Source of the DNA: Perkinsus olseni
Taxonomy: Eukaryota; Perkinsozoa; Perkinsida; Perkinsidae
NCBI GenBank assembly: GCA_013115135.1
Contig: JABANP010000288.1
Location: 1 to 64,000 of the forward strand
Length of the DNA stretch: 64,000 nt
Direction: 5' to 3'
Below, in pieces: positions 12,771 through 64,000 of this stretch. The notes beneath the pieces are model-generated. The model was not told the origin of the DNA and searched no databases. It worked only from the letters and a program-made list of their open reading frames with translations. The first letter of the stretch is position 1. Every line of letters begins with the position of its first letter. The position numbers were made by a program, and so were the translations under genes.

Positions 12771-12898
12771 AGAGCTGTGCTCATGTACAGTATATGGTGA
12801 CTCATGTTCTGTGCTCGAATGCGATCGACGTTGTCCCTGCACACCCGTTCTTATCCGGACCTCTTCCGTCCTCGGCAGTTTCCTTCGACCTTACCCTC

Positions 12899-27423: not shown

Positions 27424-28006
27424 TTATCGAGCGGTCAAACCGGCATGTTCTTCCAGCACTCGTATCCGCTCGTCGAGCTGTGTTCTCAGATCTCGGACTT
27501 CATCCGTGAGGGCTGTTAGATTCACCGTGAGTGACTGTATTGTGGCTTGCTGTTCTTGCAGGGCCACAGTTAGAACTGCAATTAAGTCTTGGTAAAGAAC
27601 CGACTTCAATTGACCGGCAGAGAGATCATCCTCGCTGGACTCTGTTTCCGAAGAATGTGTGTGGACAACCTCCGGTAGGATGTGTTCCAGGTCCTGAGAA
27701 GGAAAACGGTAATTTACTACCTATAGGAAATTAAGGCAGCCACAGGAATACACTGAGGACAAAAAGATGAAAGATACATCATTCTTACCTGAGCGATGAA
27801 CCCGAATCGGGTTCTGTGATCTTTGTCATCCTTCAGGTCGAAAGCAACCGGCCTAAGCTCTCTAAGGAGCCACTCGCCAATCTGCTTCTCGTCCTCAACT
27901 TGTCCTGCTGCTGCCGTTGTTGAAGCCAGTGATCGCTTCAATGGAATAATGCGCTCTTTCAAACGACGGTCGGAAGTTGTCAGAGCAACATCAACTTGCC
28001 ACGTAC
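27424..28006 (-). other. Peptidase S74 intramolecular chaperone domain
   Basis: Domain spans exons B and C. The predicted nucleophile is the Ser of TT-SDRRLK (codon 27974-27972) and the base the Lys five residues later (codon 27959-27957), the same S-x4-K spacing used by the family. Cleavage is expected just before that Ser. Between SDRRLK and GFIAQ there is a Thr/Ala-rich insertion. After GFIAQDLEHILPEVV comes an acidic linker and the long C-terminal helix that ends VLEEHAGLTAR. Confidence 0.92.
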
Positions 28007-31000
28007 CTGAAAGCATGTAACATGAGCTGCCGGCAACGTCTACAGCGGTGTGAGAGAGCAGTAAAAGGTTCATCACACTTACCATGAAGGTGGCCTGTCT
28101 GATCAGATGTAGCCGAAATGACTCGTGCGCTCCCAGCGTACAGGTCGAAGCTGCCCAGGCGAGCAAAGCTTCGTAGGGACAATGAGCTGCCACATGTGAT
28201 CGAGTCCACGACTGACAGTGTCTTGCCAATTCGACAAGCCTCTAGTAGCGAGACTGAGCTACCAAGGCGGGCAAAGGACCGCAAAGATAGGGAGCTGCCG
28301 AAGGAGGACGCGCCCAGGACGGACAGCGTGTCGGACAGCCGAGCGTAGCCTATAGCCGACAGTGCAGACCCGAGGGAAGCCGGGCCAACTACGGATACCG
28401 AACTACCAACTCTGGAGAAAGCTCGCAGAGATACCGAGCTACCCAAGCATACAGCGTCCAGGGCAGAGAGTGTTGCTCCAAGACGAGCGACGCCTAGGGC
28501 GGACAGTGCGGATCCTGTTTGCGCCACACCAAGGATGGACAAGGTGCTACCAAGTCTGGCGAAGCTTCTCAAAGATAGAGCGCTGCCGAATGATACCGAG
28601 TCGAGCACGGACACATGGCTACCAAAGCGCCCGAGGCCGAGGGCCGAGACTGCCGAGGATATCTTGGCTGCTTCGAGGATAGACAGCGAAGAGCCAAACC
28701 TCGCGAACGAGCGCAGTGAAAGGGAGCTAGCCATCATTGTAGAATCCACCACAGATAGCTTGTAAGCTGAACCCAGTCGTGCCAGACCGGTAATGGACAC
28801 GCCGCTACCGAGCCTCATCATAGAGCGAAGGGAAAGTGAACTACCAATGTTAGCCGCTCCGATGGTTGATAGTGTGTCACCAAGCCGGGTAAAGCTGAGG
28901 GCTGACAAGGACCCCTCCTTGCTCGTACCACCAGCAACTGACACCTCGCTCCCAAAACGCACGATGGCCCTCAGTGAGCTCCCCAGACAGGTAGCGTCCA
29001 GAACGGAAAGCCAGGTACCAAGGCGGACATTAGCCATTGCTGATAGACTGGAACCAGCTCTTACGACGCCGCTGACCGATAGAGAACTGCCAAGGCGCGA
29101 GAATGATCTCAAAGACAGCGAACTGCCGAGCTCAGCTGAGCTTGCCACGGAGAGCTTGTAGAGGGAGCCTAGACGAGCCAGCCCGGCTACACTCAGCCCG
29201 CTACCGAACCGAGCGAATGCTCGCAAAGAGAGAGAACTGCCAAGCATGCTATGAGACAATGCCGACAGATCAGCGCCCAGTCTAGTCGTGGATAGTACAC
29301 TGCAAGTACTACCAACTCTCACGGGTGAGATGATCGACAGGCTACTGCCGAGCCTCACAAAACTGCGGAGTGACAGGCTGCTACCCAGTGCAGTTGCATC
29401 CAGAGCTGAGAGTTTCTCGCCGAAGCGACCATGAGCGCATACAGATAGAGCTGAACCCACCCAGGTGGTACTGACGACCGATAGGGCCGAGCCGAACCGC
29501 GCGAAAGAGCGCATGGATACGGAGGACCCAAGGTGAGCTGCGTCCAGAGCAGAAAGAGAGCTGCCGAAGCGGCCAGTAGCGGTGATCGACAGCGCGTCAG
29601 ATATTCTAGCTGCTGATGCCACCGACACGGCGCTACCCAAACGAGCAAATGATCGCAAGGACAAGCCACTGCCCAAAGTAGTGCAGTCCAGTACAGAGAC
29701 TGAGCCCGACAACCGTGAAGCGCTCACGACGGATAACGTGCTGGAAAGCTTCGCGACTCCAGTGACCGAAATAGCGCTGCCAAGCCTAGCAAAGGCCCTG
29801 AGCGAGCAGGAGCTGCCGAGATTGCCCAGAGAAAGGATGGTAAGAGCGCCGCTCAGCCTGCTCTGGCCAAGGACGGAAACTCCGCTGCCAACCCGCGCGA
29901 AAGCACGGAGTGACAATGCAGAACCGAGTGCTACAAAGTCCAGGGTTGAACACGAGGAGCCGAAACGCACAGTTCCGAGAGAAGAGAGGCTGCTGCCGAA
30001 GCTGGCACTTCCGCTTATGGACGTCTCACCAAGGGATCCAAACCGCGCTAGACCGGTGACAGAGATGCTGCTCCCGAACCTTGCGAAGCCTCGCAGCGAC
30101 AGGGAGCTCCCCAGAGTGCCCATATCGATGGTAGAGATAGCCCCGCCAAGCCTGACTAAGCTCACAGCCGAGCAGGTATCACCAAGGAGGGCTCCTCCTG
30201 CCAAGGACAGACTGCTGCCGAGGCGAGCGAAGCTCCTCAGAGATAACGAGCTACCACAGGCTACCCTGTCTAGCACTGACAACCTCTCTCCGAATCGAGC
30301 ATGGTCAATGATCGATACAGACGATCCAATCGCCACTGTACCAACGAGAGATGCACCGCTACCGATCCTCGCAAAGCTGCGCAGTGAAAGCGAGGACCCA
30401 AAGGAAGCATGGCTGAGGGCACTGATGGAGGCGCCGAGCCGGGTGGTACCAAGCGCCGACAGTGTGCTACCCATGCTGGATGCTGACGCTACTGATATAG
30501 AGCTACCAGCGCGTACGAACGACCTGATGGACAGGGCACTGCCGAAGTTGACCGCGTCCAGGGTTGACAACGCTCCGCCTACCCTAGCGTAACTCAGAGA
30601 GGAGAATGCATCCCCACTGTGGATGCGACCAACGACGGAGGCTGAGCTGCTCAGCCGGGCGAAGGTCCGCAGAGACAGCGAGCTGCCAAGGCACACAGCA
30701 TCTACCGTGGACAGAGTACTCCCCAATCGAGTGGAGCCTAAGGCTGACAATTGGCTTCCAGTTGTCAGTGGTGAGAAGACGGATAACGCGCTGCCGAGTC
30801 GAGCCGCGGATCGGAGGGATAGAGAGCTCCCGAGAGTGGTGCAGTCCACCACCGATACCTTGAATGCAGATCCCATACGGATCAACCCAGTAGCGGACAT
30901 TCCGCTGCCGAACCGGGCGAAGCTGCGCAGTGACAGAGAGCTTCCCAACGAGGTGAAGTCGACAACCGATAGCGACTGGCCTAGGCGGGCAGTACTGAGG

Positions 31001-34000
31001 GCCGAGACCGTCGAAGCCAGATTGGTTGTGGCAACAACCGAAAGGGCCGAGCCAAGTCTGAGGAAGTCTCGGATGGACAAGCTGCTACCGAACACAGCAG
31101 AGTCCAAGACGGATAAAGTATCGCCAACTCTGGCACACGACAGTGCTGAGAGGCTACTGCCAAGTTGACCGCTGGAGACCACGGAGACGTAGCTGCCGAT
31201 GCGAGCGAAGGCCCTCATAGAGATTGAGCTCCCCAACGATACCATATCCAGGGCACTGAGAGTGGCTCCAACTCGGGTATGGGATAACGCAGATAGCGAA
31301 GAGCCCATCTCTGCCCTGGAGCGGAGGGACAGCGAACTGCCCAGCCGGGCGAAGCTCCGCAGGGATAGGGAGCTTCCAAAGTTGCCGAGGTCCAAAAGAG
31401 AGACACCACCCCCGAAACGAGCTGTGCCCAAGACGGATGCAGAACTGCCGAGGGCTGCGGCCGCTGTGAGGGAAGCTCCACTACCAAGGCGAGCGAAGGA
31501 TCGTATGGACAGCGAGCTGCCAAAGCCAGAGAAGTCCAGCACTGATAGGCTGCTACCCAAGCGGATAGAGGAGAGAGCGGAGAGCTGCCCTGCCATTACT
31601 CCAGCTCCTGCCACAGATACAGCGCTGCCCAGACGGGCGAAGCTTCTCAACGACAAGGTACTTCCGAAAGCCACCGCATCGACAGCAGATAGATAAGCGG
31701 TAGAACCGATCCGCGTGAGACCATCTACGGACAAGCTACTGCCGATTCTGAAGAATCCTCTCAGTGATAGGGAGCTGCCCAGGGCACCCATGCCCAGCAA
31801 GGACATACTAGAGCCGAGGCGAGCACCACCGACGGCAGAAACGGCAGAGCCCGTATTGGCTACTCCAGTAACCGATATGGCACTGCCCAATCTAGCGAAG
31901 CACCGAAGAGATAAGGAGCTTCCTAGAGAGCTCGCGCCGAGGACAGAGAGGGTATCCCCAAGTCGACCGAAGCCCAGAGCGGACACATCGCCACCAATCG
32001 CTCCGCCGCTCGTGATGGTGATAGAACTGCCGAGGCGGGCGAATGAACGCAGGGACAGAGTACTAGCAAGAGAGGCTTCAGCCAGAGTAGAGAGAACGCT
32101 GCCGAAGCGAGCCACCTGAGTGGCTGAGATGCCGCCAGCTATACGGGCACCAGATCCCAGAGTGATGGAGCTGCCAATACGCGCGAAAGATCGTAGAGAC
32201 AGCGAGCTGCCGACGTTGGCTTCTTCAAGGACAGATAGCGTGCTACCGATGCGTGCATGTGAGAGGGCCGAGACCTGATCGCCTAGTCGCACCGCTCCAA
32301 CACCAGATACGGAGCTGCCGAGTCTGGCGAAGGATCGTAGCGACAGGGAGCTGCCGAGATGAGCGTTACCCAAAACGCTGAGGGACTCACCGAGAGATGA
32401 CCCTGTGGTTACCGAGCACGAACTGCCGAAGCGAGCGAAGCTTCTCAAGGACAACGAACTCCCCAGCTCAGTGGCGTCGACGACACTCAGAATGTCGCCA
32501 AATCTAGCAGTGTTGAGGGCCGAGATCGCTCCGCCAAAGTAAGCCGTATTGAGAGCGGAGAGCGTGGAGCCGGCGTGGACTGCTCCAAGGGAGGAAGTGA
32601 CGCCGCACACGCGGGCAATGGAAGTGATGGATATCCCACTACCGAGGCGAGCGAAGGACCTCATGGAGATCGAGCTACCGCACACCGCTGAGTCTATTGC
32701 ACTCAAGGCATAGAGGGAGCCCATCCGTAGCATTCCAACGACAGACAGGCCGCTCCCCAACCGAGCCACGCTCCTCAGAGATAGAGAACTCCCAAGGTGG
32801 CCGAGGCCCAGGGCGGACAGCTTGGCTCCGATCTTGACAGACGAACGCAGAGAGAGGGTGCTGCCGAAGTGGGCTGCTTGGATAATGGACAAGCTACCAC
32901 CTAGCAGAAGACCAGAAGTTGCGGAGATACCGCTGCCGATACGCAGCGAGGTTCGCAGGCTCAGTGCACTGCCGAAGGTCACGAAGTCCAAGACAGACAA
33001 CTTGCTGCCTAAACGACCGTAGGATCTGATGGAGATGGCACTGCCGAAGGATACGGCATCGAGAGAGGAGAGCGCTGACCCGAGCCTTGCTGACGACAGG
33101 GCAGACAATGTACTACCGATGTGGGCACTTTCGGCTGCCGATAGGGCTGAGCCGAGACGGACGTAGGAGCGCAGAGACAGTGAACTGCTTAGAGCAGCGT
33201 AGTCCACAACCGTGAGCTTACTACCAAGTCTGGCGAAGCTGCGGAGCGACATGGAGCTGCCCAAAGTAGCATACCCGACTGAGGAGAGGGAGTCGCCTAG
33301 GCGGGCCATGCCAAGCACCGACATAGCAGAGCTTGATTGCACGACACCGGTTACAGATACTGAGCTGCCAAGCCTAGCGTACGCCCTGAGCGATAAGGAG
33401 CTGCCGAGGTTGACACAGTCCACAACGCTAGCAATACTGCCGAAGCGGGCGAAGCTTCGCATAGACAGAGATGATCCACAGTTGACCAACTCCGCCACCG
33501 ATAGACTGCCACCAAACTCGAGTTCGCCCTGAGCGAAGAGACCACTGTAGAGTGACAGAGAGCTACCGAGCCTTGCGAAGGACCTCAGAGATAACGCGCT
33601 TCCCAAGTTGGCAGCAAGCATTACCGAGAGGGCACCGGCCACACCGCTGCTTCCGGCGACAGATATGGAGCTACCGGTCCTAGCGAAGGATCGGAGAGAG
33701 ACGGAGCTCGACAGAGTGATGGAGTCACAGACAGAGACACCACCGGTACCGAACCTAGACTGGCCATACACCGATATAGAGCTTCCAAGTCGACCGATTG
33801 ACCGCAAGGATAGAGTGCTAGCGAAGGATGCGGTGCTTATTGTGGACAGAGAGTAGATGGAACCCAACCGGCTGAGGCCAGTGACCGACAGACCGCTGCC
33901 TAGTCGAGCGAAGCTCCGCAGGGATAGGCTGCTCGCGCAGTGGGCCATGTTGACTATGCTTGCACTGTACATAGAAGTGGTGCGAGTGAGGCCGAATATA

Positions 34001-37000
34001 GAGACGCTACTGCCGAATCTAGCGAACCCTCTCATGGACACCGAGCTGCCAATGGCCGCCATGTCGATCAACGACAGCTTGAATACGCTGCCTGCTCTAG
34101 CCAGACCGAGGATGGAGATTCCGCTGCCCAACCGAGCAGCGTGTCGTAGTGATAGGCAGCTGCTCATTGAGCCGAAGTCGTAGACGGACAGAGATGAGCC
34201 AAGGTTGCCTAGCATCCTCACCGACAGCGAGCTGCCCAGCGTCGTAGCGTCAAGGACCGATAGGGTGCTACCAAGCTGGCTCTTGTCGAAAACGGACACG
34301 CTGCTGCCGAAACGAGAAAATCCCCGGAGAGATAAAGCGCTGCCCAAGTTAGCGAGGTCGAACATCGAGAGCTTACCGCCGAGACTAGCGAATGACCTCA
34401 GCGATACAGAACTTGATAGCTGTACAGCATCAGCCGCGGACATAATTCCGCCATGCAGAGTCTTAGAAGCAATCGAAAGGGCGCCGCCCAGGCGAGCAGC
34501 CGCACGAAGGGACATGCAGCTGCCTATCATGACGTGGTCCAGGATCGAGGCAACCGCGCCGATCCTAGAATTGGAAACGGCAGAGAAGCTCGACCCAAGC
34601 CGGAAGAGAGCCCTGATGGAGAGGCTGCTCCCAAGATGAGCGAAGTCGAAGACCGACAGCTTCGATCCACACCGTGAAAAAGACCTCAAGGACAAAGAAC
34701 TGCCGAGCTGTGTACCATCGATTGCTGAGAGCTTGTAAACAGAGCCGACTCGAGCGAGGCCGAGAACCGACACTCCACTGCCAAGGCGACCAAATCCTCT
34801 TAGCGATAAAGTGCTGCCGAGGCTAACACAATCTAGAGCAGATACGGTACTGCCAAGCCTCGCGAAGCTCCTCAGAGAGAGGGAGCTACTGAATGACACC
34901 GAGTCGACAACAGATGCCGACGACTGCATGTAGGACTTGCCGTATATCGATATAGACGAGCCCGCTAGAGCGTTAGAGAAGATCGATAAGCCCGATCCAA
35001 GCCTAGCCATAGCGCGGATGGACATACTGCTGCCAATATTTGCCTGGTCAAGCACAGTGAGCTGGGCAGAGAGTGAGGCCTTGGACAACACGGATATTTG
35101 AGACCCTATCTTGGTGCTGCAACGCAGGGAGAGGCTGCTGCCGAGGTGGACAAAGTCGAGAACCGAGAGCTTAGAGCCGAGTCTAGCGAAGCTCCGGAGA
35201 GATAAGGAGCTGCCAAGGATGGCCTCTGCCAGAGTAGAGACTGCGTAGACAGAACCTGTCCGTAGCAGGCCGAGCATAGACACTCCACTACCCAGACGAG
35301 CGAATGACCGTAGGGACAGGGTACTGCCGAACTCTACCTCGTCCAGTACAGAGGAGCGTGCACCGACTCTGGTGAATGAGCGAACCGAGAGTGCGCTTCC
35401 AAAGTGGGCCAAGTCTAGAACAGAAACTTTGCTTCCTAACCGGGCCAAGCTTCTCAACGACAAGGAACTGCCGAAGTGCGCTTGATCTACAGCACTCAAG
35501 CGGCCGCCAAACTGGCCGGAGCTCAACGCCGAGAGGGAGCTGGCGAACCTGGCGAAGCTCCGGAGGGACAGAGAGCTTCCGAGGTTGAGGGAATCCAGAA
35601 CGCTCAGTCGTGACCCAAAGCGGGAGAAGGATCTCAGAGAGAGCGAGCTGCCCATGCTGGTTTGGCTCAGCACTGATAAGGCCGAGCCTAGAGTAGCCCG
35701 CTGTAAGACTGTCACCGTGCTACCCAGCCTTGAAAAGCTGCGCAAAGACAGACTGCTGCCGATCTCTACGTCGTCGATGACCGAGAGTTTGGAGCCCATC
35801 CTTGCGAAGCTGCGCAAGGAGATTGAACTCCCGAGGGTAGCATAGCTGACCAGCGAGATACAAGAGCCCAGCCTCGCCCCATCGAATAGAGAAAACGCGC
35901 TTCCCACGCGAAGGAATGCCCGCATGGACATAGAGCTACCGAGGACCGAGACGTCGAGGACTGAGAGGCTGGAGCCGAATCGGCTGAACGAGCGCAGAGA
36001 CACCGAGCTGCCGAGCGTGATTCGATCCAACACGGAGAGAGATGAACCAGCACGGATGGCAGACAGAATGGACACGGAGCTGCCCAGTCGGCAAGCAGAC
36101 CTCAGAGAGAGGCTGCTGCCCAAAGCCACAGCCTCGATGGCAGAGAGCGATTTACCGATACTTGCCACACCGATAACCGTGAGACCCGATCCAAGTCTAG
36201 CAGCGGAGCGCAACGAGAGAGTGCTGCCGAACGACGACATGTCCAGTACGCTTAGGCGACTGCTGAGGCGCACCCAAGACCTTATGGACAGAGAGCTACC
36301 AAAGGAAGCAAATCCGAGCGAGGAAATAGTACCGCCGCAACGACTCAACGACAGTGCAGATACAGCAGAGCCGAAGCACCCAGAGGTAGCAACAGAAAGG
36401 CTGCTACCTAATCGAGCAAAGCTCCTGAGTGAAAAAGAGCTGCCCAAGGTGACTGCACCGTAGGCTGAGACTGTATAAAGGGACCCCACTCTTGCTACAC
36501 CGGTCACCGACAAAGTACTGCCTAGTCTTGCTAAGCCTCTCAGTGATAGACTACTCGAGAGAAGTCCGTGGTCGAACACGGTCAGAAGGCTGCCAAGACG
36601 AGCAAAGCTCCTCAATGACAGAGAGCTGCCGCATACCGTCTCGCTGAAAGTAGACAAGGTAGCACCGAGTCTGGAAGAGGTAGCAACAGATATCGAGCTA
36701 CCGAGCCTCACCGCAGACCTCACGGACAGGGAGCTGCCGAGTGTAGCCAAGTCAACTGTACTCAGCTTGCTTCCCAGACGGCAGAAGCTCCGGAGCGAGA
36801 GGGAGCTACCGAGGTCAGTCGAGTCAAGCACAGAAATCCTCTCTGAGAGGCGGGTGCTCCCGAGGACAGAGAAACCGCTGCCCAGCCTCGCGAACTGCCT
36901 TAGAGACAGTGAGCTCGCTAGAGACGTAGAGGCTATAACGGACAGTGAGTAGACAGAGCCGCAGCGGAGAAGCGAGGTTACCGAGATGGTGCTGCCGAAT

Positions 37001-40000
37001 CGAGCGAGGCTTCTCACACTCAGAGAACTGCCGATGGATGACAAGTCCCAGAGGCTGACCTTCCCGCCGAGCCTGCTAAAGCTCCTGACGGATAGCGAAC
37101 TACCCAAGCCGACGAGTCCAAGGGCCGACAACGAGTCACCCAGCCGACTGAGGCCGTAGACAGATGCCACGCTGCCCAGCCTAGCGAGACTTCTCAGGGA
37201 TAGAGTGCTACCCAGCAGTACAAAGTCAAGTGCGCTGGACTTGCTTCCTACCCGAGCGAAGCTGCGCAGTGAGAGAGAGCTGCCGACTGCGACATGGTCG
37301 AGCACAGAGGTAGAGGCCCCGAAGGAGGTGCTGGCTAGTATGCTCAGAGCACTGCCGATCTGACCAGACCCGAAGACGGATAGGCTACTGCCGAGACGGG
37401 CAGCTGACCTTAGAGAAAGACTGCTACCAAAGTCCACGGAGGCGATGACGCTCAACTTGTAGACAGATCCCAGACGGGCAAGGCCGAAAGAGGAAACACC
37501 GCTGCCGAGCCGACAAACGCCCCGGAGAGATAGAGTGCTGCCTAGGTTAGCTTGGTCTAGCACTGACACCTTGCTACCGAGGCGAGCGAAGCTCCTCAAA
37601 GACAGCGAACTGCCGAAAGAGGTATCAGCAATCACTGACAGGGCATAGATTGAGCCGACACGGGTCAGACCCTGGACTGAAAGGGAACTGCCCAGCCTGG
37701 CAGCACTCCTAAGGGAGAGAGAGCTGCCGAAGTAGCCGCTGGATATGACGCTGAGTTTATAGATGGAACCGATACGGGCCAACTGGGCTACTGAGCAGGT
37801 ACTGCCTATCCTCACTGCTGCACGGATGGAAAGAGCCGAACCGAAGGAGGCGAAGTTGCAAACACTAGCACAACTGGCCAGCCTGGCGAATGACCGCAAC
37901 GACAGACTACTACCGCAGTGCATGCTGTCGAGAATGCTTGCAGAGCCTCCCAGGCGGCTAGCGCTGCAGATCGAGACGACACTTCCCATACGCGCAAATG
38001 AGCGCAATGACAGGGAGCTACCGAGACCGGTACAGGCTATGACCGAGAGGCTGTACAAGGACCCGACACGAGCCAAGCCGTACACGGACACTCCGCTACC
38101 GCAGCGAGAGACGCTTCGTAGGGAGAGAGAGCTACCAAGAGTTACCATGTCCAGGATCGAGGCGGAGCTGCCAAGCCTAGCAAAAGAGCGTAGAGATAGC
38201 GAACTGCCGAGAGTCGCTTCAGCCAAGACGGAGAGTCCGCAGCCACAGGGGCTGTTGGTGTTACCGAAGACGGATAGCGAGCTACCAATGCGGACCGCAC
38301 TGCGCACAGAGAGACTGCTACTGAGGGTGGTGAAATCGAACACCGACAGGATGCCGCCAAGGCGAGAGAAGCTCCTTAGAGACAGGGAGCTCGAGCAAGC
38401 GGTGGCATCGAGTACGGAGACTGTCCCGCCAAAAAATGACTCGCTGAAGACTGAGAGCGTGCTGCCGATCCTGGCGAAGGAGGCCAGGGAGAGGCTACTG
38501 CCTAGGCTGGTGTAGTCGAATACAGAATGCTTGCCGCCAAGACGAGCGAAACTCCTCAAAGACAGCGAGCTACCGAAGGAGGCAGCACCGAGCGCGGTGA
38601 GCGAGTCACCCAGTCTCGCGGAGGCGCACGTTGATACTGTGCTACCAAGCCTGGCGAAACCACGGAGTGATAGACCGCTGCCGAAGGTAGTTGAGCTGAT
38701 GACCGATAAGTCGTATATCGAGCCAATTCGCGCAAGGCCTGTTACGGACACGCTACTGCCCAGCCTGGCGAAGGCCCTGACAGACAGAGAGCTTCCAAGG
38801 GCGGTACTGTCGAGTACTGATAGATCACTGCCGAGCCTAGCGAAGCTTCTTAACGATAGGGAACTGCCGAGGTTGACTGCCTCGCAGACGGAGACTGCCA
38901 GTAAGGATCCGAACCTCGTTGCCCCGGTCACAGACAGGGAGCTACCAGCTCTTACTGCAGCCCTGACGGATAGAGCACTGCCAAAGGCTGCGAAGTCGAA
39001 CGCGCTGAGCACACTGCCGACTCGTGCGAAGCTGCGCAGAGATAAGCTGCTACCGAGGGCCGAGGAGCCCAACACCGAGCACGAGCTTCCGACTAGGCCA
39101 GACGACTGTACAGAGAGGGTACTGCCCAAGCGCATCATAGACCGGAGTGATAGTGAGCTACTGAGCAAGGCGAAGTCGAATGCAGTAGTAGAGCTTCCCA
39201 GTCTGGCGAAGCTCCTCAGGGACATGCTACTGCCCAGAGCTGTGGCATCCAGGACCGAGACGCTGGCTCCAAGATCAGCGGTTGAGAGAACCGAGACTCC
39301 GCTGCCCAGCCTGGCAAAGCCCCTCAGAGACAGGGAGCTACCGAGAGATGAGCTGGCAATGACCGAGATAGCGTACACTGAGCCGACACGCTGGAGGCCC
39401 TGCACGGAAACGCCGCTTCCAAGACGGAGGCATCCTCGAAGGGACAGAGAGCTGCCCAGGGTTAGGAAGTCAAGTACCGAGAAGGACGATCCGAGCCTGG
39501 AGAAGCTTCGCAAGGATAGGGAACTACCCAAGGACGCCTCTGAGATAACACTGACAGAGTCTCCTAGTTTCAAGTCGGCGAAGACCGACATGGTGCTGCC
39601 GATACGCGACGCTGAACGAAGCGAGAGGCTACTGCCTAGAGCAGTATAGTCAAGGGCACTGGCAGACTTCCCAAGACGCGCGAAGCTGCGCAACGACAGG
39701 GAGCTTCCAAACGACGCTGCTCCGAGAACGGAAAGTCGGTCACTGAAGTATCCCTGCGATAGAGCCGAGACGCTGCTACCAAGTGTGAGACCGGACGACA
39801 CTGACATCGAGCTGCCTATCCTCGCAAAGGACCTCAACGATAGGGCACTTCCCATAGACATGCCAGCGATCACGGAGATCTTGTAGACGGATCCGACTCT
39901 TGCCAAACTAGCAACAGAGATACCACTGCCGAGTCGAGCGAAGCTCCTTAGAGAGAGAGAACTGCCGAAAGCCGAAGTCTCGAGAACGCTTGCAGAGCTA

Positions 40001-52000: not shown

Positions 52001-55000
52001 TAGCGAAGCCTCGGAGAGAAAGCGAGCTGCCGAGGTGGGAGGCCGCTAGTACCGAGAGCGATTGCCCAAGTCTTTGGTCAGCATAGATGGACACCGTGCT
52101 ACCCAGTCTAGCATAGGACCTCAATGAAACGGAGCTACCGAGAAGAGCCTGGTCCAGTACGCTGAGCTTGCTGCCGAGCCTGGCGAATGATCTCAAGGAT
52201 AGAGAGCTTCCCAAGGACTGCTCGCTCAGGACTGAGACGGCGGACCCGACCTTGCAGGTAGCGAAGGTCGAAAGCTCGCTGCCCAGCCTAGCGAAAGATC
52301 GAAGTGACAGTGCACTGCCGAACATGGCAGCCTCCACTACGGACAAGTGCTGACCTATTCGGCCACCACCTAGCACGGACATAGCACTACCGACGCGGCA
52401 CATGTTACGCAGAGATAGGCTGCTAGCAAGCACAGCACAGTCCAGGACTGACAGAGTACTGGACAGTCTACCAGTCGCCAGCACGGATACGGAACTGCCG
52501 AACCGAGCAACAGTCCTCAACGACAGGCTGCTGCCGAGGTGGGTGAACGAGGTGACACTCACGGAGGCTCCGAGCCTGGAGACAGCAGTCGCGGAGACTG
52601 AGGAGCCCATCCGCAAGACCGCCCTAAGGGACAGGCTGCTACCGAGACTTATACAGTCGAGCAGGGAGGTAGCCTGAGCCAGCTTCGTCCTGCCGACTAC
52701 CGAGACGGTGCTACCGAAGCGTGCAAGGCTACGGACTGACAGAGAGCTGCCGAGCGTGGCGTAGTCGAGGACAGTTAGGGTGGAACCCAGACGCGTGAAG
52801 CCGTACGCTGAGATGGTGCTGCCCATTCTTGCCAGGGACTGCAGGGAGAGGGTGCTGCCCAGGGTAACGTAGTCCAAAACCGAGAGGGTCGAACCCATTC
52901 TGCCGACACCGTAGACAGACGCGGAGCTACCTAGTCGAATGAACTGCCTCAGTGACAGCGAACTAGCTAGGTTGGTCAAGTCGAGGACGGAGAGCCTCTC
53001 GCCAAGGCGTGCCGAGCTCACGGTAGAGCAGCTGCTTCCAACTCGGAGGAACGACCGTAGAGATAGAGAGCTGCCGCAATGGGCTAGGCTGATGACCGAC
53101 AGCGATTGCCCTATGTTGATGGCAGCATACACAGAAGCAGAGCTGCCTAGCCGCGAAGCTGCACGGATGGAGAGCGATGAGCCCAGGTGGGTAGAATCTA
53201 GGACGCTCAGCTTGGATCCAAACCTTGCGAATGATCTAAGCGATAAGGATGAGCCCAAAGTGAGAGAATCCAAAGTGGACAGACTCTGGCCCAAGCGGGC
53301 TATGGAAGCGACACTGGCGACGCTGCCCAATCTCGCCAGGGAGCGGACAGAAAGGGAGCTTCCAACCAGGGCGAAGTCCAGTGTGGAAGTCTTACTGCCA
53401 AGCCTAGCATAGCTTCGGAGAGACAGCGAGCTGCCTAGATGTAGCTGGGCCACTGCTGAGAGTGAATCGCCCAAGCGAGTCGCAGCAGCGACCGAGAGGG
53501 TACTGGCCAGGCGGGTGTGCCCTCGAACAGAGAGGGAGCTACCCAGAGTGAGGTAGTCGATGATAGACACTGTGCTGCCGAACCGGGCGTAGCTCCTCAA
53601 GGACAGGCTACTGCCGAGATTAACAAAGTCTATGACCGTTGCATGACTACCGAATGTCGAGGCTTCCGCTACCGATAGGACCGAGCCGAACCTCATGAAG
53701 CCTCGCAAGGACATGGTGCTACCCAGGTTGATGCAGTCCAGCAGCGACAGTGATTCGCCCAGACGAGTGGTAGAGAGGACTGTGAGGGTACTGCCCAGGC
53801 GCATGAAGCTAGCGACTGATAGGGAACTGCCCAGAGATGCTAGATCCAGGGCTGTGAGACTCGATCCGAATCTCGCGAATGAGCGGACGGACAGCGAGCT
53901 TCCGAGGGTTGTGGCATCCAGGATACTCAGGGAAGAACCGCATTGGGTGGCCGAGATGGTAGAGAGGACACTGCCAAACCTGGCCAGGGATCTCACAGAG
54001 AGTGAGCTACCAAGAGTCAAAGCGTCCAGTACTGAAGCGGCAGAGCCGAGCAGAACTGTAGCTTGCGACGACAGGGAGCTACCCAAGCGCAGGAATGATC
54101 GCAGGGAGAGCGAGCTGCCGAGGCCGGCCCAGTCCAGCACCGACATGCTGCTGCCCAGTCTAGACTCCTCGAGCACAGAGATGGTGCTACCAAACCTCAT
54201 GAACCCTCTCACAGATAACGAGCTGCCTAGATTAACGGCATCGAGGGTAGACAGGCTCTTGCCAAGATTGGCGACGTCGAAGACAGACATGTAGCTACCG
54301 ATCCTGGAGGCCCCCCTCAGGGATAAGGAAGACCCGAAAGTAGCATAGTCCAGCACAGTCAGCTTACTACCAAGCCGAGCAAAGCTCCGTAGAGAGAGGG
54401 AGCTGCCAAGAGTCGCATGATGGAGGACCGTGAGAGACTCACCGATGCGTGTATGGCTGGCTACAGACAGGTCGCTGCCTAGCCTAAGCATGGATCTCAC
54501 TGAGAGGGAGCTTCCCAGTGTAGCGTAGTCGAGGACAGTAGCTGAGCTCCCCAGTCGGGCGAATGATCGCAGTGACAGGCTGCTGCCAAAGGCGGTGCTA
54601 TCAAGGACAGACAAGTCCGCGCCCAAGCGCGCTTGTGATATGACAGACACTGAGCTGCCGAAGCGAGCAACATCGCGAAGTGACAGCGAACTGCCGAGCA
54701 CCACATGGTCGAGTAACGTAAGTGAACTGCCCAGCCGAGCGAATGATCTCAGCGATAGAGAGCTGCCGAACCAGCAGTTGTCAAGGACGCTCAAGGAGCT
54801 GCCCAGACGTGTATGGTCCAACGCAGAGAGAGTGCTACCGAGAACAGTGGAGTCCATCACTGTCAGTGTACTGCCGATGCGCATGAACGATCGAAGGGAG
54901 AGGGCACTGCCTAGTGTGCACTCCTCCAACACGGAGATGGTCGCACCAATACGCGCACACTGAGCTGCAGTGATCGAGCTTCCAGCCCTCAGCAGAGCGC

Positions 55001-58000
55001 GCAGAGACAGGCTACTGCCTAGAGTGGCGAAGTCCAGGACGCTGACCTCGCTACCGAGGCGACCAAAGGACCTCAGACTGAGAGAGCTACCGAATGTCAC
55101 AGAATCCAACACTGATGCCGTGCTACCCAACCTAGTCCAATCAAGGATGGACGCCGAGCTACCGAGTCGAGCTACGGAGATGACAGAGATCCCACTACCG
55201 AGCCTAGTGGAAGCTCGAAGGGAGAGGGAGCTGCCCAGATGTAGGTAGTCCAGAATGGACACCTTGCTAGACAACCGAGCAAAGCTTCGTAGTGATAGGC
55301 TGCTGCCGAACTCAGCCTGTTCAATGACCGAGAGTGCTTTGCCGAGGCTTGAGTCACCTAACACGCTCATGTGGCTGCCGAGTCTAATGAATGATCGCAG
55401 TGATAGTGAGCTGCCGAAGGAAACACCGCCACAGACCGAAAGCTTGGCTGCAAAGCGAGCCATACGGGCCACGGACAAGCTGCTGCCCAGAATGGTGTAA
55501 TCTAGGACAGATAATTTACTACCATGCCGGAGGAATGAGCGGAGTGACAGGGAGCTCCCAAGAGTGACTGCATCCAAGACGGTCATGGCTTGACCGAACC
55601 TGCCCGACCCCAGCAAGGAGATGGTACTGCCGAGCCTAGCTGTAGCTCTGAGGGAGAGGCTACTCCCGAGCGAGCACTGGTCCAATACCGTGAGGGTACT
55701 GCCCAGCCGTGCCGTACTGAGCGCCGATATGAGGCTGCCTAGCCTAGTGACCGACCGTATAGAGAGCGAAGACCCAAGGTTGACGAAGTCTAGGATGCTC
55801 GCTTTCGAGCCTAGACGACTGAAGGATCGCAGGGACAGGGAACTGCCAAGGCTGACTTCTTCTAGTACCGAAGCGAAGCTGCCGAGTCGGGCCCAGTCCA
55901 AACACGAGAACGACGACCCTAGGCGAGAGGTTCCGACAACTGAAAGACCACTGCCTAGCCGGAAGAAGGTTCGCAGGGACAAGCTTGAACCAAAGTTGGC
56001 CATGTCAACGACGGAAAGACTGCTGCCGAGCCGCAGGTTACCAAATACCGAGCAACCGCTACCAAGGCGACCGAATGAACGGACCGACAGGGAGCTGCCC
56101 AGGTCGGTCATATCGAGTGCTGAGAGCTTGCTTCCAAGCCTTGCGAAGGACCGCAGTGAGAGGGAGCTCCCGAGCGCCACGCAGCCTAGGACGGAGGCGT
56201 GGCTGCCAAACTCAGCAACCCCAAGGGCAGAGAATGCGTCCCCAATAGTTGGACGGCTCTGCACGGATATGCTGCTGCCGAAGCGAGCCAGTGACCGTAC
56301 GGAGAGTGAGCTGCCAAGAGTAGTGGCACCAAGGGCTGATAGGGCGCTACCAATACGGCAAGAGGCGAACGAGGAGAGAGAACTTCCCAGCCGTGCGAAG
56401 GAGCGGAGCGAAGTCGAGCTGCTAACCATGGTGTGGTCAATCACGGATAGGCTCAGGCCCAGGCTGGCTGACTTGAGGAGGGACACAGAACTGCCAAACT
56501 TGGCCATGCTCCGAAGGGAGAGGGTACTGCCGAGACTGACAGAGTCTACTACGCTGAGTGTCGTGCCGGCTCTAGCATATGAGACGACAGACACGACGCT
56601 ACCGAGCCTGACGAAGCTCCTCAGTGACAGCGAGCTACCAAAGTTGACCACGTCCAGCGTTGAAAGGTCCGACCCGAGCCTCGCTGACTGTATAGCGCTC
56701 ACCGCTGAACCAGCCCGCAAGAGGGAGCGAAGGGAAACCGTGGAACCAAAGAAGGCCGAGTCAATGACAGAGAGCGCGCTCGATAGCCGAGCCTTGGAGA
56801 CTATAGACAGGGAGCTGCCAACTCTGAGGAAGTCCCTCAACGACAGGCTAGATGATAGTGTAGCGATATCCAGTACAGACAACGTGCTGCCGACCTTTGC
56901 GGAAGTGAGGATACTCAAACCACTACCCACACGGAGCATATCCCTCAAGGACAGGCTGGAGCCTAGAGTGGCGCAGTCAAGTACTGAGAGGGTCTCTCCC
57001 AACCTAGCTGTGTGGATGGCGGACAGGCTGCTACCAATACGTAGTAACTGTCGTACCGAGAGAGCGCTGCTTAGGATGGTGTAGTCGACGACCGAGAGTG
57101 AGCTGCCAAGATTGGCCCTCGTCAGCACGCTCACGCCGCTGCCGAATCGGGCGGCTGATCGGAGTGATAAGGAGCTTCCGAAGTGCGTGAAGTCAAGCAC
57201 AGTGGCTCGACTACCAAGTCTGGCGAAGCTACGCAGAGATAGACTACTGCTGAGAGTGGTAGAGCCCAACACAGAGAGGGCACTACCAAGACGTGTCGTG
57301 TCTAGGACTGACAGAGTTGAACCGGCTCTTAGGCTATCGATTACAGACAGGCCACTGCCACACCTGACAGCCGCCCTCAGAGACAGAGAGCTGCCGAGGC
57401 TGGCGACGTCGAGGACCGACAAGGACTGCCCGAGTCGCGCTATTTGGAGTGTCGAGAGGCTACTCCCCAATCTGGCCATGGAACGCATCGACACGCTACT
57501 TGCCAAGTGGGCGAGGTCAACCAAACTGAGCTCACTGCCTAGCCTAGCGAAGCTGCGGAGGGAAAGAGTGCTCCCGAACTCGACCTGCTCCAGAACAGAT
57601 GCAGAGCTACCGAGCCTTGCCCAGCCCAAGGCAGAGAGGGTCGATGCAGCTCTGACTGGCTCTAGAATTGACAAGGCACTGCCAAGCTTGCACATAGCTC
57701 TCAGGGACAGAGAGCTGCCGAGGGTACAAGCATCAAGGACGGTGAGTGTAGAACCCATACGAGCAAGGCTCGCAACCGTTGCTGTGCTGCCGAATCTAGC
57801 GTAGCTCCGAAGCGATATGGAACTGCCCAAGTCAACCATATCCAATAGCGACAGGCTAGAGCCGAAGCGAGCTGTGGCGAGCAGAGTCAAGGAGCTACCG
57901 AAGCGAGATAGCGAGCGCAGAGATATCGAGCTGCCCATGTTGATGGTCGATATCACCGACAGAGTATCAGAGAGCCTCGTACTAGAGACCACCGACATTG

Positions 58001-61000
58001 TAGAGCCAAACCGCATGAATGAGCGGAGGGAGAGGGCACTGCTCAGCGTGGTGCAGTCGAGCACAGTCAGCGTCGAGCCTAGCCTGGACCCGGCAAGAAC
58101 AGAGATACCGCTGCCATACCGTATGAAGCTACGGAGCGATATAGTGCTGCCGAAGTTGGTCATGTCGAGCACGGACAGGTCCCGACCGAATCGGACTTTC
58201 TCTAGAGCTGACATACTGCTGCCGATACGGGCGAAGGCTCGCACTGACAGTGACGAGCCCAGCCTGACGAAGTCCAACACTGTTGCAAACTTCCCCAGTC
58301 GAGCAAAGCTCCTCAATGACAAGGAGCTGCCAAAGTGAGCGTAGTTCAACACGCTGACGGAGTCACCGACTTTGCACCAGTCGAGGACGCTGGCCGAGCT
58401 GCCAATCCTAGCCAAGCCGAGAATGCTCAGGCCACTGCCAACCCGAGAGAAGCTTCGAAGGGACAGTGAGCTACCCACAGTGGCTGCTTTGATGACCGAC
58501 AGGCTGGCACCACAGCTTGCGGTACTCACAGCAGAGACCGAACTGCCCAGTCTCGCGAAGCTGCGGAGCGACAAGGAGCTGCCAAGGACACTCTGATCCA
58601 AGAGAGAAGCCGAAGAGCCGTAGCGAGCTATAGAGTGTAAGGATAGGGTTGATCCAAGACGGCAAGCTGCCCGCAAGGAGAGCGAGCTGGCTAGGTTGGC
58701 CCAAGACAGTGCTGTTAGCGAATCGCCCAGTCTGGTGGCACATAGGGTGGAGACGCTGCTGCCGAGTCGTAAAACCGACCGTACTGATAATGAAGTTGCA
58801 CAGACAGCGAAATCCATCACTGTCAAAGACGAAGCTAGCTTGGTTTGAGTTAACACGCTCACTGAGCTGCCGAAGCGCATCAGGCCCCGAAGGGATAGGG
58901 AGCTGCCAAGCAACGTGCAGTCAAGGGTGGACAGATCCTTTCCCAGTCTCGTGCCCAGAACCGTCGAGAGGGACGATCCGAACCTCATAAACTCCCTCAA
59001 TGACACTGCACTGCCGAAGTTTACCATGTCGAGGACTGACGCGCTGCTCCCCAGCCGCGATACACCGAAGAGAGAAAGGCCGCTGCCAAGACGGATGGTC
59101 GATCGCAGACTGAGGGAACTAGCAAGGGCCGTGAAGTCCATGACCGACAGAGTGTTGGACATTTTCATACTGGACAGGATAGATGCTACACTGCCCAACC
59201 TCAAGGCTGAACGGATCGACACCGAGCTGCCAAGGTGGGTGTAGTCCAACACTGAGAGGCTCTCGCCCATCCTAGTCTTGGAGAGCATGGAGATGCTTGA
59301 GCCAAACCGACAGAAGGACCTCAGAGAGAGGGAGCTTCCAAGGGAAGTGGCATCAAGGACCGAGGCAATGCTGCCCATGGTCATTGAGGCAATCACAGAT
59401 ACGGTACTGCCAGCTCTCGCGAAGGCTCTCACGGAGAGGGTACTCCCCAAAGACACGGCATCTAGGACGGAGATGACGGAGCCAAACCTGGTCGTACTGT
59501 AGACAGAGAGGCCACTGCCGAAGCGCATCATTCCCCGCAGGGAGAGGCTGCTGCCGAGCGTACTCCAGCCAAGGAGTGAGAGGCCGCTGCCGAGCCGTGA
59601 CACGCTGTAGAGGGAGAGCGTACTCCCGAGACGAGCGGTGGAGCGAACACTGATCATGCTGCCCAAGTGGACATGGTCAAGACCGCTCAGAGTGCTGCCG
59701 AGTCGAGCCATCCCAAAGCAGCTCATGGCACTGCCCAGCCTCGAGAAAGACCTCAGTGAGAGGGAGCTACCGAAGATCGCAGTGTCAAGGACCGAGAGGC
59801 TCGCGCCAGCCCCAGTATGGGAGAATATACTCACCGAAGAGCCTTGCCGAACGAACGACCTTAACGAGAGGCTACTGCCAAACTTGACCGCGTCCAGGAT
59901 CGAGAGCTCTCCATGTAGCCTCTGATACCCGCAGACCGACAGGTTGCTGCCTAACCTCACAAACGAGCGGAGCGAGAGGGAGCTACCCAAACCAATGGCA
60001 TCCAAGGCTGACATAGTAGATCCCAAGCGCGTAGTGGCCATGGCAGAAAGAGAGCTGCCCAGCCTAGCAGTCGCCCGGACTGATAGCGATGATCCAACAG
60101 CGATGAAGTCCAGGACCGAGATGCTCTGTCCATAGCGGGCGATGCCATAGGCCGAGATACCACTCCCTAGCCGCGTCATCGACCTCACTGACAACGAGCT
60201 GGCGAAGGTACCGAAGTCTAGCAAGGACAATGAGCTGCCGAACCTTAGAGAGGAGAACACCGATACGCCACTGCCAAATCGGGAGCAAGAGAGAGAGCCT
60301 CGTAGAGAGAGAGCACTGCCCAAGGTGTTGCAGTCTAGGGTAGTGAGTGACTTGCCAAGTCGGGCCAAAGACGCCACAGAGAGGTTACTGCCGAAGCGGA
60401 TGTAACTGCGCAGGGACAGTGCGCTGCCCATGGTGGCATAGTCGAGGATAGAAGCCGAGGACCCCAGTCTTGACAGACCCAACAAAGAGCAAGAGCTCCC
60501 CAGCCGTACGAAGTCACGAAGAGAAAGTGAGCTGCCGAGCTGCAGGAAGTCCAACACCGTTACGTGAGAAGCGAAGCGTGCCAGACCGATGACAGAGACT
60601 CTACTGCCTGCTCTAGCATAGGACCTCAGAGAGATGGAGCTACCTAGAGTAGACCACTCCATAACGGATACACCACTTCCCAGACGGGCCATGGCAAAGG
60701 ACGATAATGTCGACCCCAGGCGGGCGAAAGACCGGAGGGATACTGTGCTGGCGAAGGTGGCGTAGTCAAGGATAGAGGTAGCGCTACCGAACCTAGTGAG
60801 GCTGTACAGCGAGAGGCTGCTGCCTGCCCTGACCATGGACCTTAGGGACATTGCTGAGCCCATACTAGCGAAGGATAGGGTTGAGATGGACGCCCCAATC
60901 CTGACCTGGGATAGTGTGGAGAGGGTACTGCCAAGCCGTACTAGATTCCGAATGGAAATAGCGCTTCCACAATGGCCGAAGTCAAGGAGGGACAGAGAGT

Positions 61001-64000
61001 CACCAAAGCGCACACTACGCAAGGCCGATAGAGTGCTGCCTAGGCGGGAGAATGAGCGTAGAGACATCGTGCTGCCGAGATGGCACTCGCTAAGCACCGT
61101 TAGAGCATGGCCAACAGCAGTCCGTGCAAAGGCAGATAGGGTGCTGCCAACTCTCGTGAAGGCTCGCAACGACAGGCTACTGCCGAGGGTGACAAAGTCA
61201 AGCACAGAGAGTGTACTGCCAACCTTGGCAAGCGACAGCATGGACAGTCCGCTGCCCAGGCGAGAGCTGGCCCGAATGGACAAGCTGCTGCCTAGGGTCG
61301 AGCAATCCGTCAGCGACATTGATGAGCCGAAGCGAAGCGCCGCGTGCACCGACAAGTTGCTGCCAAACCGAGCGAAGCCTCTGAGGGATAGAGCGCTCCC
61401 CAAGGCCACCGTGTCTAGCACGGACATTGTCGATCCCAGACGGGCCACGGAGAATACACTAGTGGACGAGCCAAACCTAGCAGCTGATCTCAAGGACAGG
61501 GCAGACCCCATCGCAACACTGTCCAGCGATGACATGGTACTGCCGAACCTCGCCATGCCCATGAGGGATAGCTCACTGCCAAGCCTCATCATAGACCGCA
61601 AGGACATTGAACTTGCCAAGGAGACATGATCGAGGGCAGAGACAGTCAAGCCTAGCCTGGTCCATCCCTGAACGGAGAATGTCGAGCCCAGCCTCATGAT
61701 AGATCGTAGAGATGCCGAGCTGCCCAGGTTGAGGAAATCCAGTACCGATAGAGCTGAGCCAATGCGGGACACGGAAAAGACGGAGAGGTCACTGCCGAGC
61801 CTGCAGCTATTGCGCACCGATAATGTGCTGCCCAGCATGAGGTAGTCAAGAACCGATGCAGCACTACCCAGGGATGTGAAGGAGCGTATGGACAGTGAGC
61901 TACCCATGGTAGCATAGTCTAGCACTGACAAGTAACTGCCCAGCCTGGCCGTTGATAACACCGAGAAGTAGTCACCCAGGTGTACCCTATTGAACACTGA
62001 CGCGGTGCTACCGAGGCGAGCGAAGGTCCGCAGAGACAGAGAGCTACCGAAGTGACTCTTGCCCAGAACAGTGATAGAGTCACCAAACCTGGCCCATCCC
62101 AGGGCTGACAGGCTACTTCCCAACCTCGAGATGGCTCTAATGGACAGGCCGCTGCCTAGCTCGACCAAGTCCATTACAGACAGGCTGCTGCTCAGGCGTT
62201 GGCGGGCAACGATGGACAGGTCACTGCCGAGGCGCACAAGGTTGCGGACGGAAAGTGAGCTGCCTAGCGTAAGCCAGTCCAGCACCGACAAGGAGCTGCC
62301 GACTCTCGATATACTAAAGACAGAGCATGAGCTGCCCAGCCTAGTATAGGAGCGAACGCTCATACACGAACCGAACTCCAGCACGCCTGCACAAGAGACC
62401 TTAACCCCAAAGTTGGCTTGGCCGTAGCATGAGAGGGAGCTGCCAAATCTCATGAAGGCTTGAAGAGAGAGGGAGCTCCCTAGGGTAAGGCTGTCCAGTA
62501 CTGATAGTGAGCTGCCGAGCCGGGCGACGCCGAATGCCGAGACAGAACTACCAAGACGACTCACCCCACGGAGCGACAGAGAACTGCCAAGGCTGAGGTA
62601 ATCCAAGACCGATGCCTTGCTGCCCAGACGAGCCAGGCTGCGCAGTGAGAGAGAACTAGCCAGGGATACTTGGTCAATGACCGAAGCTGTGCTGCCCATC
62701 CGAAGCCAGCCCAAGACGGAAAGGTTATCACCAGCCTGTATAGTAGAAAAGACTGACAGTGTACTACCAAGCCTGCTGAAGCCACGAAGGGATAGAGCTG
62801 ACGACACCGTCATACCGTCTAGCACCGACATCTTGGCTGAGAGTCGGGCATTACCGAACACCGAGAGATGGCTACCAAGGCGGAATACTGACCTGACGGA
62901 AAGGCTACTCCCAAGCTGCAGACAGTCTAGTATGGACATCTGCTGCTGGAATCTAGTCCTGCCGCAAACCGAGGCCTCAGAGCCCAACCTAGCAACCGAT
63001 CGGAGTGATAGAGCGCTCCCCAGGGTGACAGCGTCGAACATACTTATGGTACTGCCAAGGCGGGCTATGCTGTACAAGGAGACGGTGCTGCCATGACGGT
63101 AGAAGCTCCTCAGGGACAATGCACTACCGAGGCTCGAGACGTCCAGGATGGACACGGTGCTCCCAGCAGCCATCTTGGCGAAGACGGACAGGGTGCTTCC
63201 TAGTCTAATGTACGACCGCACACTGACAGACGAGCCGAGGCCAGTGAAGTCCAGGACCGATACCACGGAGCCCATACGGGCGAGGTTGTAAACTGAGAAG
63301 ACGCTGCCAAGCCTGAGCATGCTACGCAAGGAGAGGGTACTGCCACACTGGGCAAAGTCCAATAGCGATGCACTAGACCCCAGCCTACTACTGCCAAAGA
63401 GGGACATAGTGCTACCGATACGGCCATAGGACCGAAGAGAGAAAGAGCTGCCCAAACCAACGTAGTCGAGCACAGACAAAGAGCTGCCAAGTCTTGCTAG
63501 GCTGAAGACTGATATCTTACTTCCCAACTTGAGGAAGCTGCCAATAGAGCAAGAGCTACCGAAGGTAGCGTAGTCCAATACCGAGAGGCTACTGCCGAAT
63601 CGGGCAAGGCCGAAGAGGGAGGCGCTACTGCCCAGCCTACTGAAGGCTCGGACACTGAGAGCCGACCCCATAGCCATGAAGTCCAGGATGGATGCTTCAG
63701 CGCCCAGTCGACAGCCTTGATAGAGAGAACAGGCGCTACCCATACGCATGAGAGAGCGGAGAGATAAGGCTGATGATATCTCCACGCTGCCAATGGCGCT
63801 GAGAGTATCACCTAGCTTGGCCCACCCATACACCGATATGGTACTACCCAGCCTAGCGAAGGAGTTCACGGAGATACAACTTCCTAGCCTGAGCCGATCT
63901 AGCACGGACAAGGTAGCTCCGAACCTTGCTGTACTGAAGACTGATATACCACTGCCTGCTCTGAGAGCAGCACGAAGGCTCAGGCTGCTGCCGTAGTTGG
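27424..64000 (-). CDS. Giant 12-residue-repeat fibre protein with C-terminal peptidase S74 chaperone (5' partial)
   Basis: Minus strand. Exon A runs from beyond 64000 to 28083, exon B is 28006-27789, exon C is 27693-27424 (TAA). About 12,100 residues lie in the window and the start is outside. Exon A is almost only 12-residue units, LGSSLSLRSFAR alternating with LGSSLSVLDxxx, about 1,000 copies. The hydrophobic/small hexad spacing suggests a beta-solenoid or trimeric beta-fibre (inference). Exons B and C give TWQVDVALTTSDRRLKERI, LRELRPVAF, GFIAQDLEHILPEVV and a final coiled coil YQDLIAVLTVALQEQQ: a full peptidase S74 intramolecular chaperone, known from phage tailspikes and MYRF, which trimerises and self-cleaves. 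One base appears to be missing near 47012; the gene is otherwise open. Introns are 76 and 95 nt, GT-AG. No signal peptide or membrane segment can be judged. Role unknown; an extracellular or extrusible filament is one idea. Confidence 0.9.
28083..64000 (-). repeat. 36-bp coding repeat field (12-residue units, often paired as 72 bp)
   Basis: Nearly 36 kb of tandem, diverged 36-bp units. On the plus strand the recurring blocks are gagctgccgag, gcgaagctccgcag and gacagagagctgcc. Units alternate between an LRSFAR type and an SVLD type, so the higher-order period is often 72 bp. Divergence between units is high in codon use but low in protein, so selection on the amino acids is likely. Confidence 0.95.
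28700..44110 (-). repeat. C-terminal zone with interspersed 14-residue variant units
   Basis: Only in this part of exon A do units such as VGSVYKLSVIAxxx, LGSIYALSVIAxxx or FGSLYKLSVASxxx occur, about thirty times, usually after a GLARVGS- or GLTRIGS-type unit. They add two residues to the 12-residue register. The first in the direction of translation is near 44,090 and the last near 28,750, an average spacing of about 0.5 kb. None was seen between 44.1 and 64 kb. Confidence 0.8.

Follow-up and report, generated by a model that had tools for sequence, protein, structure and literature searches.

A giant 12-residue-repeat protein of Perkinsus olseni that ends in a Peptidase_S74 domain and is likely to form a secreted fibre

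We describe a giant gene of the perkinsid Perkinsus olseni, identified in a window of 64,000 nucleotides (bases 1-64,000 of the 66,380-base contig C210, JABANP010000288.1, from an assembly of 61.5 Mb in 968 contigs), whose product consists of a very long array of 12-residue repeats followed by a C-terminal Peptidase_S74 domain, the self-cleaving chaperone module of phage tailspikes. This is a real, conserved, S74-ended giant repeat protein, and it is probably secreted. We consider it likely that chains of about 14,000 residues build a structural fibre, which would be templated and then released by the S74 domain as a trimeric beta-helix, with trimerisation and cleavage posited by analogy to characterised S74 proteins. 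To our knowledge, no other S74-capped fibre would come near it in length.

The array lies on the minus strand of C210 in two overlapping open reading frames (ORFs), 46,980-66,380 (6,467 residues) and 27,991-47,010 (6,339 residues). The first holds the 5' part of the array, which occupies positions 46,980-64,000 of the window (as an ORF of 5,673 residues at 46,977-63,998, open at the window edge) and runs on to the end of the contig, while the 3' part constitutes exon A up to its splice donor (28,083-47,010). The frames overlap at 46,977-47,013, where C210 differs by one nucleotide in length from a second assembled copy of the locus, on contig C523, which is open at this point. A preliminary description of the window had recorded about 12,000 residues of 12-residue repeats in one reading direction; the amount and the direction stand, but the array sits in two frames on account of this one-nucleotide difference near 47,000. 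Its placement of the gene start outside the window agrees with the continuation of the array to the contig end at 66,380, with the 5' end probably on a further contig, C261. Beyond exon A follow a GT-AG intron of 76 nucleotides (28,007-28,082), exon B with the core of the S74 domain (27,789-28,006), a second GT-AG intron of 95 nucleotides (27,694-27,788), and exon C (27,424-27,693), which encodes the end of the S74 domain, a C-terminal coiled-coil helix with heptads recognised by eye, and the stop. Joining 28,083 to 28,006 and 27,789 to 27,693 produces one open S74 exon set that terminates at 27,424-27,426. The genome contains 155 matches to CGTAGCCATYTTGGCTCAAG with at most one mismatch (62 forward, 93 reverse; none for the reversed control), and the exact matches among those listed read CGTAGCCATCTTGGCTCAAG, which is contained in the spliced leader PmaSL1 of Perkinsus marinus (PMC3101222; here and below, papers are cited from parts of their text). 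A pattern for a Perkinsus ITS primer, with one mismatch allowed, had no match in the genome. The spliced-leader genome and the GT-AG introns support the eukaryotic nature of the giant protein.

The spliced C-terminus matches the Pfam Peptidase_S74 model (PF13884) with 45.6 bits against a gathering threshold of 22 (E 8.7e-12), and exon B on its own scores 28 bits, also above the cut-off, which bears out by profile search the complete C-terminal S74 domain with a Ser-Lys pair initially described from the letters. The SDxxxK motif, named as such in PMC10769870, takes the form SDRRLK in exon B. By eye, we predict the serine encoded at 27,972-27,974 to be the nucleophile, with the cut immediately N-terminal to it, and the lysine at 27,957-27,959 to be the general base; both columns are invariant in 41 of 41 rows of one alignment (A1) and 99 of 99 rows of another from which the window protein was left out (A3), and mutants of such a Ser-Lys pair have been described in PMC8326128. 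Since the S74 domains of phages, Bdellovibrio and MYRF trimerise and cleave themselves (PMC8326128, PMC10769870, PMC3742443), a homotrimer, a beta-helical repeat and self-cutting may be inferred for the window protein by analogy. An AlphaFold2 monomer model of the S74 domain of a relative (P0002) has good confidence, matches known chaperone structures and, as modelled, displays the ICA fold with its long C-terminal helix (residues 302-357); its VIA match list holds four chaperone entries, and the other rows are largely long-helix matches. When 1,333 and 291 residues of the window protein were scanned against Pfam, only S74 reached the cut-off; a match of the repeat to Peptidase_C23 (E 0.006) fell below it and was taken as chance. 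A single-sequence search of the PDB with the spliced end returned nothing relevant.

To count the repeat units, the sequence was tiled by dynamic programming, using a 12-residue profile that had been trained on it. This gave 536 units in the 5' half, covering 99.5% of its residues in uninterrupted runs of 6, 163, 259, 73 and 35 units, and 518 units in the 3' half (98.1% of residues), for a total of 1,054 on C210. Spacer-free junctions number 531 of 535 in the 5' half and 479 of 517 in the 3' half. Of the 38 spacers in the latter, 32 consist of two residues, and 28 of these end in Gly as aligned; two-residue spacers are absent from the 5' half. The unit consensus is L/F-G-S-S-L-S-V/L-x-S/D/G-x-A-R, with Ser at position 6 in 95% and Leu at position 5 in 61% of units. 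Through much of the 5' half, whose strongest lag is 36, the units follow the order R-type, G-type, D-type; the 3' half has its strongest lag at 24 and a mixture of spacings (24, 36, 38 and 48). A YK[LIVM]S variant occurs eight times in the 3' half (27,991-47,010) and never in the 5' half. Tandem Repeats Finder listed no DNA-level tandem repeats in the array; hence the periodicity resides at the protein level and the units are probably old. On the opposite strand, plus-strand ORFs mirror the repeat at 29,537-30,592 (351 residues), 38,516-39,649 (377 residues) and 55,594-57,084 (496 residues), and as the latter two recur with near-identical ends on C523, they look like by-products of codon use. 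The 12,765 repeat residues on C210 amount to about 1.29 megadaltons, with about 25% Ser, 0.05-0.08% Pro and an isoelectric point of about 11.5. N-glycosylation sequons are fewer than in shuffled sequences (7 against a mean of 15.7, and 1 against 11.8), a deficit that the order of residues by unit position alone could explain. A serine-rich, very basic protein of this kind could conceivably be an extended scaffold with no fixed fold, such as a matrix or brush, in which the S74 domain were only a trimerising tag, and the low confidence of the structural models discussed below would suit it too. We nevertheless judge this very unlikely, as disorder needs neither the 12-residue phase held at 531 of 535 junctions of the 5' half, with its longest runs of 259 and 163 units, nor alternating aliphatic positions and the near-absence of proline.

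The second copy, on the 190.6-kb contig C523, represents the same locus, which three ORFs flank in a mirrored arrangement, and differs from C210 by 3.35% over 39,352 aligned bases. In the two array halves, respectively, synonymous divergence (dS) is 0.107 and 0.103 and nonsynonymous divergence (dN) 0.0086 and 0.0101, that is, dN/dS of 0.080 and 0.097 over 6,443 and 6,296 codons (12,739 in total). The wrong frames of the same alignment yield dN/dS of 1.9-4.7, and in each half 244-311 of their codons are stops in at least one copy, against none in the right frames. For comparison, a neighbouring methyltransferase ORF shows dN of 0.028 and dS of 0.128 between the copies. Differing sites number 1,294 of 38,268 in the repeat exon, 0 of 218 in exon B and 3 of 269 in exon C; among non-coding sites they number 4 of 76 in intron 1, 1 of 95 in intron 2 and 16 of 395 downstream. 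The low dN/dS along the array, set against the values in the wrong frames, establishes that purifying selection acts at the protein level on the giant frame as a whole. Five internal insertions or deletions separate the copies: two, of 9 and 6 nucleotides, keep the frame, and three, of 1, 14 and 2 nucleotides, break it. Such breaks in both copies, and the fragmentation into many shorter frames of a related array on contig C679, are what one would expect if the gene were mis-assembled or decaying and had no product. However, dN/dS stays at 0.08-0.10 along the whole array, exon B is unchanged, and each break is private to one copy, the 1-nucleotide break to C210 and the 14- and 2-nucleotide breaks to C523, with the other copy open at each; we accordingly hold an artefact to be highly improbable.

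A search of the genome for the repeats, in which 57 of 123 candidates were scored, found them on four contigs: C210, C523, C261 and C679. The ends of C210 and C523 lie at most four bases apart at the same point of the array. The 55-kb contig C261 carries minus-strand repeats from its first bases to about position 2,836, and by eye the 12-residue phase at its end and at the start of C210 agrees within one base; no near-identical overlap was seen between C261 and C210, and a query from the 5' region of C261 matched C261 alone. The simplest reading is an assembly fork, in which C261 would represent the common 5' part of both copies. Upstream of the C261 repeats, an ATG opens a hydrophobic leader that ends in A-R-A and is followed by WVLVGRDGTITFLGRIEIG (by eye); an N-terminal piece from C261 had no PHROG match. 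A similar exon occurs on C679 (tblastn E 7e-4, 52% over 25 residues), preceded, across a possible intron, by another hydrophobic leader recognised by eye. As these leaders resemble signal peptides, the product is probably secreted. Addition of C261 brings the repeats to an estimated 13,710 residues and, if the join holds, the whole protein to about 14,000 residues. C679 also bears a second giant array on its minus strand at about 44,500-102,000 (loci L013-L019 and L022), broken into frames of up to about 2,070 residues, and four S74 copies, all with SDRRLK, at about 7.2, 10.1, 30.0 and 44.5 kb; three of these copies do not belong to the long array.

A protein search with the C-terminus, restricted to sizes of 160-509 residues and with 8,000 candidates scored, found 322 relatives, of which the best 120 are listed; these measure 245-495 residues, include proteins of the dinoflagellates Alexandrium monilatum (P0023) and A. 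catenella (P0033), and have SDx[RKE]xK in 118 of 120. A second search gave 66 proteins, with S74 relatives of up to 2,175 residues (P0124), and among 1,023 candidates of 3,120-9,927 residues only the distant P0121 was found, none in that range being near the window protein. We scored a repeat period wherever the strongest period was 12, 24 or 36 with a lag identity of at least 0.15. By this rule it is present in 115 of the 120 listed relatives, in 0 of 78 testable viral S74 loci (80 fetched, the best of 231) and in 1 of 55 testable bacterial ones (59 fetched); without the lag-identity threshold, one of these periods comes top in 9 viral and 9 bacterial loci. Phylogenetic analysis began with the window protein, 60 of the 120 listed relatives, 7 of the 66 from the second search, P0121, 50 of the 80 viral loci and all 59 bacterial ones; rows that lacked the motif or lay outside the length limits were dropped (47 of the 50 viral and 47 of the 59 bacterial loci passed both filters), as were identical rows, leaving 151 S74 domains (65, with 41 viral and 45 bacterial) over 122 columns. 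Many forks of the tree are unresolved, but the window protein and 63 relatives form one set (support 99/85) apart from the viral and bacterial rows, and P0121 falls outside this set on a very long branch. The repeats also occur without an S74 match, in Vitrella P0128 beside a TSP1-like stretch below the Pfam cut-offs, which would suit an extracellular role, and in Durusdinium P0183 beside VIT and VWA domains. A limited literature search found no publication on Peptidase S74 of dinoflagellates or on three of the repeat motifs.

In seven of twelve relatives checked (P0123, P0125, P0130, P0131, P0139, P0140 and P0164, all from the second search), the otherwise near-invariant position-6 Ser gives way to a mixture of mostly S, L, P or F (47, 39, 37 and 16 in P0123, roughly random-pyrimidine proportions) and Gly is often D or E, with the frame open. 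One of these, P0164 of Symbiodinium microadriaticum, keeps SDRRLK, yet Pfam finds no S74 in it. The other five, including the transcript-derived P0007 and P0129, lack this pattern. Decay by transitions or mRNA editing are our guesses as to its cause.

The repeat unit has mostly aliphatic or small residues at positions 5 and 7 and at 11 and 1, a pattern that would place two inward residues on each six-residue strand; two inward residues per six-residue strand are likewise described for the stalk of MYRF (PMC8326128). AlphaFold2 monomer modelling of 240 window residues, with 42 gapless rows, produced a best model of five with a mean predicted local distance difference test score (pLDDT) of 52, in whose second half strands recur regularly at positions 4-7 and 10-13 of the unit, and four others at 28-32. 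Correlating volume residuals over all positions gave, for the two halves, -1.2 and -3.4 standard units at lag 6, and +1.0 and +1.4 at lag 18; as other lags and subsets ranged from 2.7 to -2.9, these values favour neither a trimeric nor a single-chain helix. At 4.8 Å per strand layer, the rise per residue would be 0.8 Å in a triple beta-helix, 0.4 Å in a two-sided 12-residue coil and 0.27 Å in a left-handed helix, corresponding here to fibres of about 1.10, 0.55 and 0.37 µm.

The latter two lengths would apply if the repeat instead formed a single-chain beta-solenoid, either a left-handed beta-helix or a two-sided 12-residue coil, which the S74 domain would merely cap or release. The one monomer model with a regular hexapeptide strand pattern and the 36-residue period of the 5' half, equal to two 18-residue coils, speak for such a solenoid, as do weak similarities of the repeat sequence to acyltransferases with a left-handed beta-helix in the PDB (best E 0.002 and 0.007); actual kinship with these LpxA-like proteins was rejected in favour of a shared hexapeptide rhythm. 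Yet the monomer is not confidently predicted, and the left-handed beta-helix favours a small residue at the position that corresponds to unit position 5, which is Leu in 61% of units. Moreover, the S74 clients described in PMC8326128 and PMC10769870 are trimeric beta-helices, and we therefore regard the solenoid as unlikely.

Several observations weigh against the trimeric fibre that we prefer: both assembled copies contain frame breaks, the join of C261 to C210 is inferred, the weak PDB matches are to acyltransferases and not to trimeric fibres, and the repeat models are of low confidence (pLDDT 25-29 over the first 130 residues of the P0002 model, in addition to the above values for the window protein). 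Low pLDDT would fit an obligate trimer, but equally a poorly modelled monomer or disorder. Nevertheless, we propose that three chains would enter the secretory pathway, where the C-terminal coiled coils and S74 domains would trimerise and set them in register. Folding would then proceed from the C-terminus through about 1,130 units (the 1,054 counted on C210 and the remainder estimated for C261), each unit contributing two six-residue strands to a long trimeric beta-helix. Once the S74 trimer had formed correctly, its Ser would attack the preceding bond with Lys as the base, and the chaperone would detach. What remained would be a kinetically trapped fibre, placed on the cell or outside it, of a length fixed by the number of repeats.

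Regarding the place of such a fibre, the anterior flagellum of P. olseni zoospores bears a row of hairs along one side, with a length given as 1.3 +/- 2.9 µm as printed, an odd spread (PMC7398310). The triple-helix length of 1.10 µm (about 13,700 repeat residues at 0.8 Å) is near the 1.3 µm of these hairs, an agreement of one number. We tentatively suggest, while thinking it rather doubtful, that the gene encodes the shaft and molecular ruler of the simple hairs that perkinsids and dinoflagellates carry on their flagella, with the S74 domain starting the trimer and cutting itself off at completion. From the sequence, an extrusome fibre or a surface coat may be just as possible as a hair, and trichocysts or toxicysts have been reported in Perkinsus (PMC5609580). 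In dinoflagellates, the morphology of fibrous material in the perinuclear space had led to its being taken as a flagellar-hair precursor, "without chemical or molecular evidence" (PMC3377698, 2012), and our protein offers a concrete candidate for this material. If the suggestion is true, a phage-type fibre assembly machine was turned into a eukaryotic flagellar appendage, and there would be a natural case, comparable with MST3 of Chlamydomonas, of length set by gene length. The array would also constitute a large-scale test of the reach of a single C-terminal chaperone as the template for a beta-fibre, with selection indicating that the whole length is in use, and in a eukaryote.

Elsewhere in the window, a minus-strand ORF of 919 residues (17,753-20,509) with integrase zinc-binding, integrase core and reverse-transcriptase matches represents a retroelement polyprotein or its remnant; since C523 has no ORF of at least 300 residues at the matching place, one of the copies may have received it by insertion. 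A plus-strand ORF of 665 residues (12,470-14,464) has a methyltransferase domain (Methyltransf_11, 1.4e-15), and 27 copies of a 24-bp tandem repeat (947-1,593) lie inside a plus-strand ORF of 678 residues without a Pfam match.

Among known systems, the tailspikes and fibres of phages, such as the endosialidase NF (3gw6) and the T5 fibre (4uw8), share with the window protein the S74 fold, the Ser-Lys pair and the C-terminal position behind a stalk, but the viral loci differ in that none of the 78 testable ones has the repeat period by our rule (nine without the threshold). The mosaic adhesive trimers of Bdellovibrio (PMC10769870) are likewise cellular, secreted and S74-ended with SDxxxK, as trimeric beta-helical fibres that were shown to self-cleave and whose full-length model spans about 550 Å; however, they are bacterial, end at about residue 920-1,150, so that the window protein is 12-15 times longer, and the available text mentions no 12-residue unit. 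MYRF (PMC8326128, PMC3742443) has a eukaryotic S74/ICA domain with the Ser-Lys pair and, for its own part, a trimeric beta-helical stalk, but it is a membrane-bound transcription factor, whereas the scanned pieces of the window protein reach the Pfam cut-off for S74 only. The dinoflagellate proteins P0023 and P0033 share the 12-residue repeat and, behind it, an S74 domain with SDRRLK, though those listed, within the size range searched, have 245-495 residues against about 14,000. Finally, MST3 of Chlamydomonas (PMC11015965) would work alike, as one giant repetitive secreted protein of 8,572 residues that has been proposed to extend along the whole of an 800-nm flagellar hair, but it is a poly-hydroxyproline helix of different sequence, with S74 not mentioned in the part of that paper cited here.

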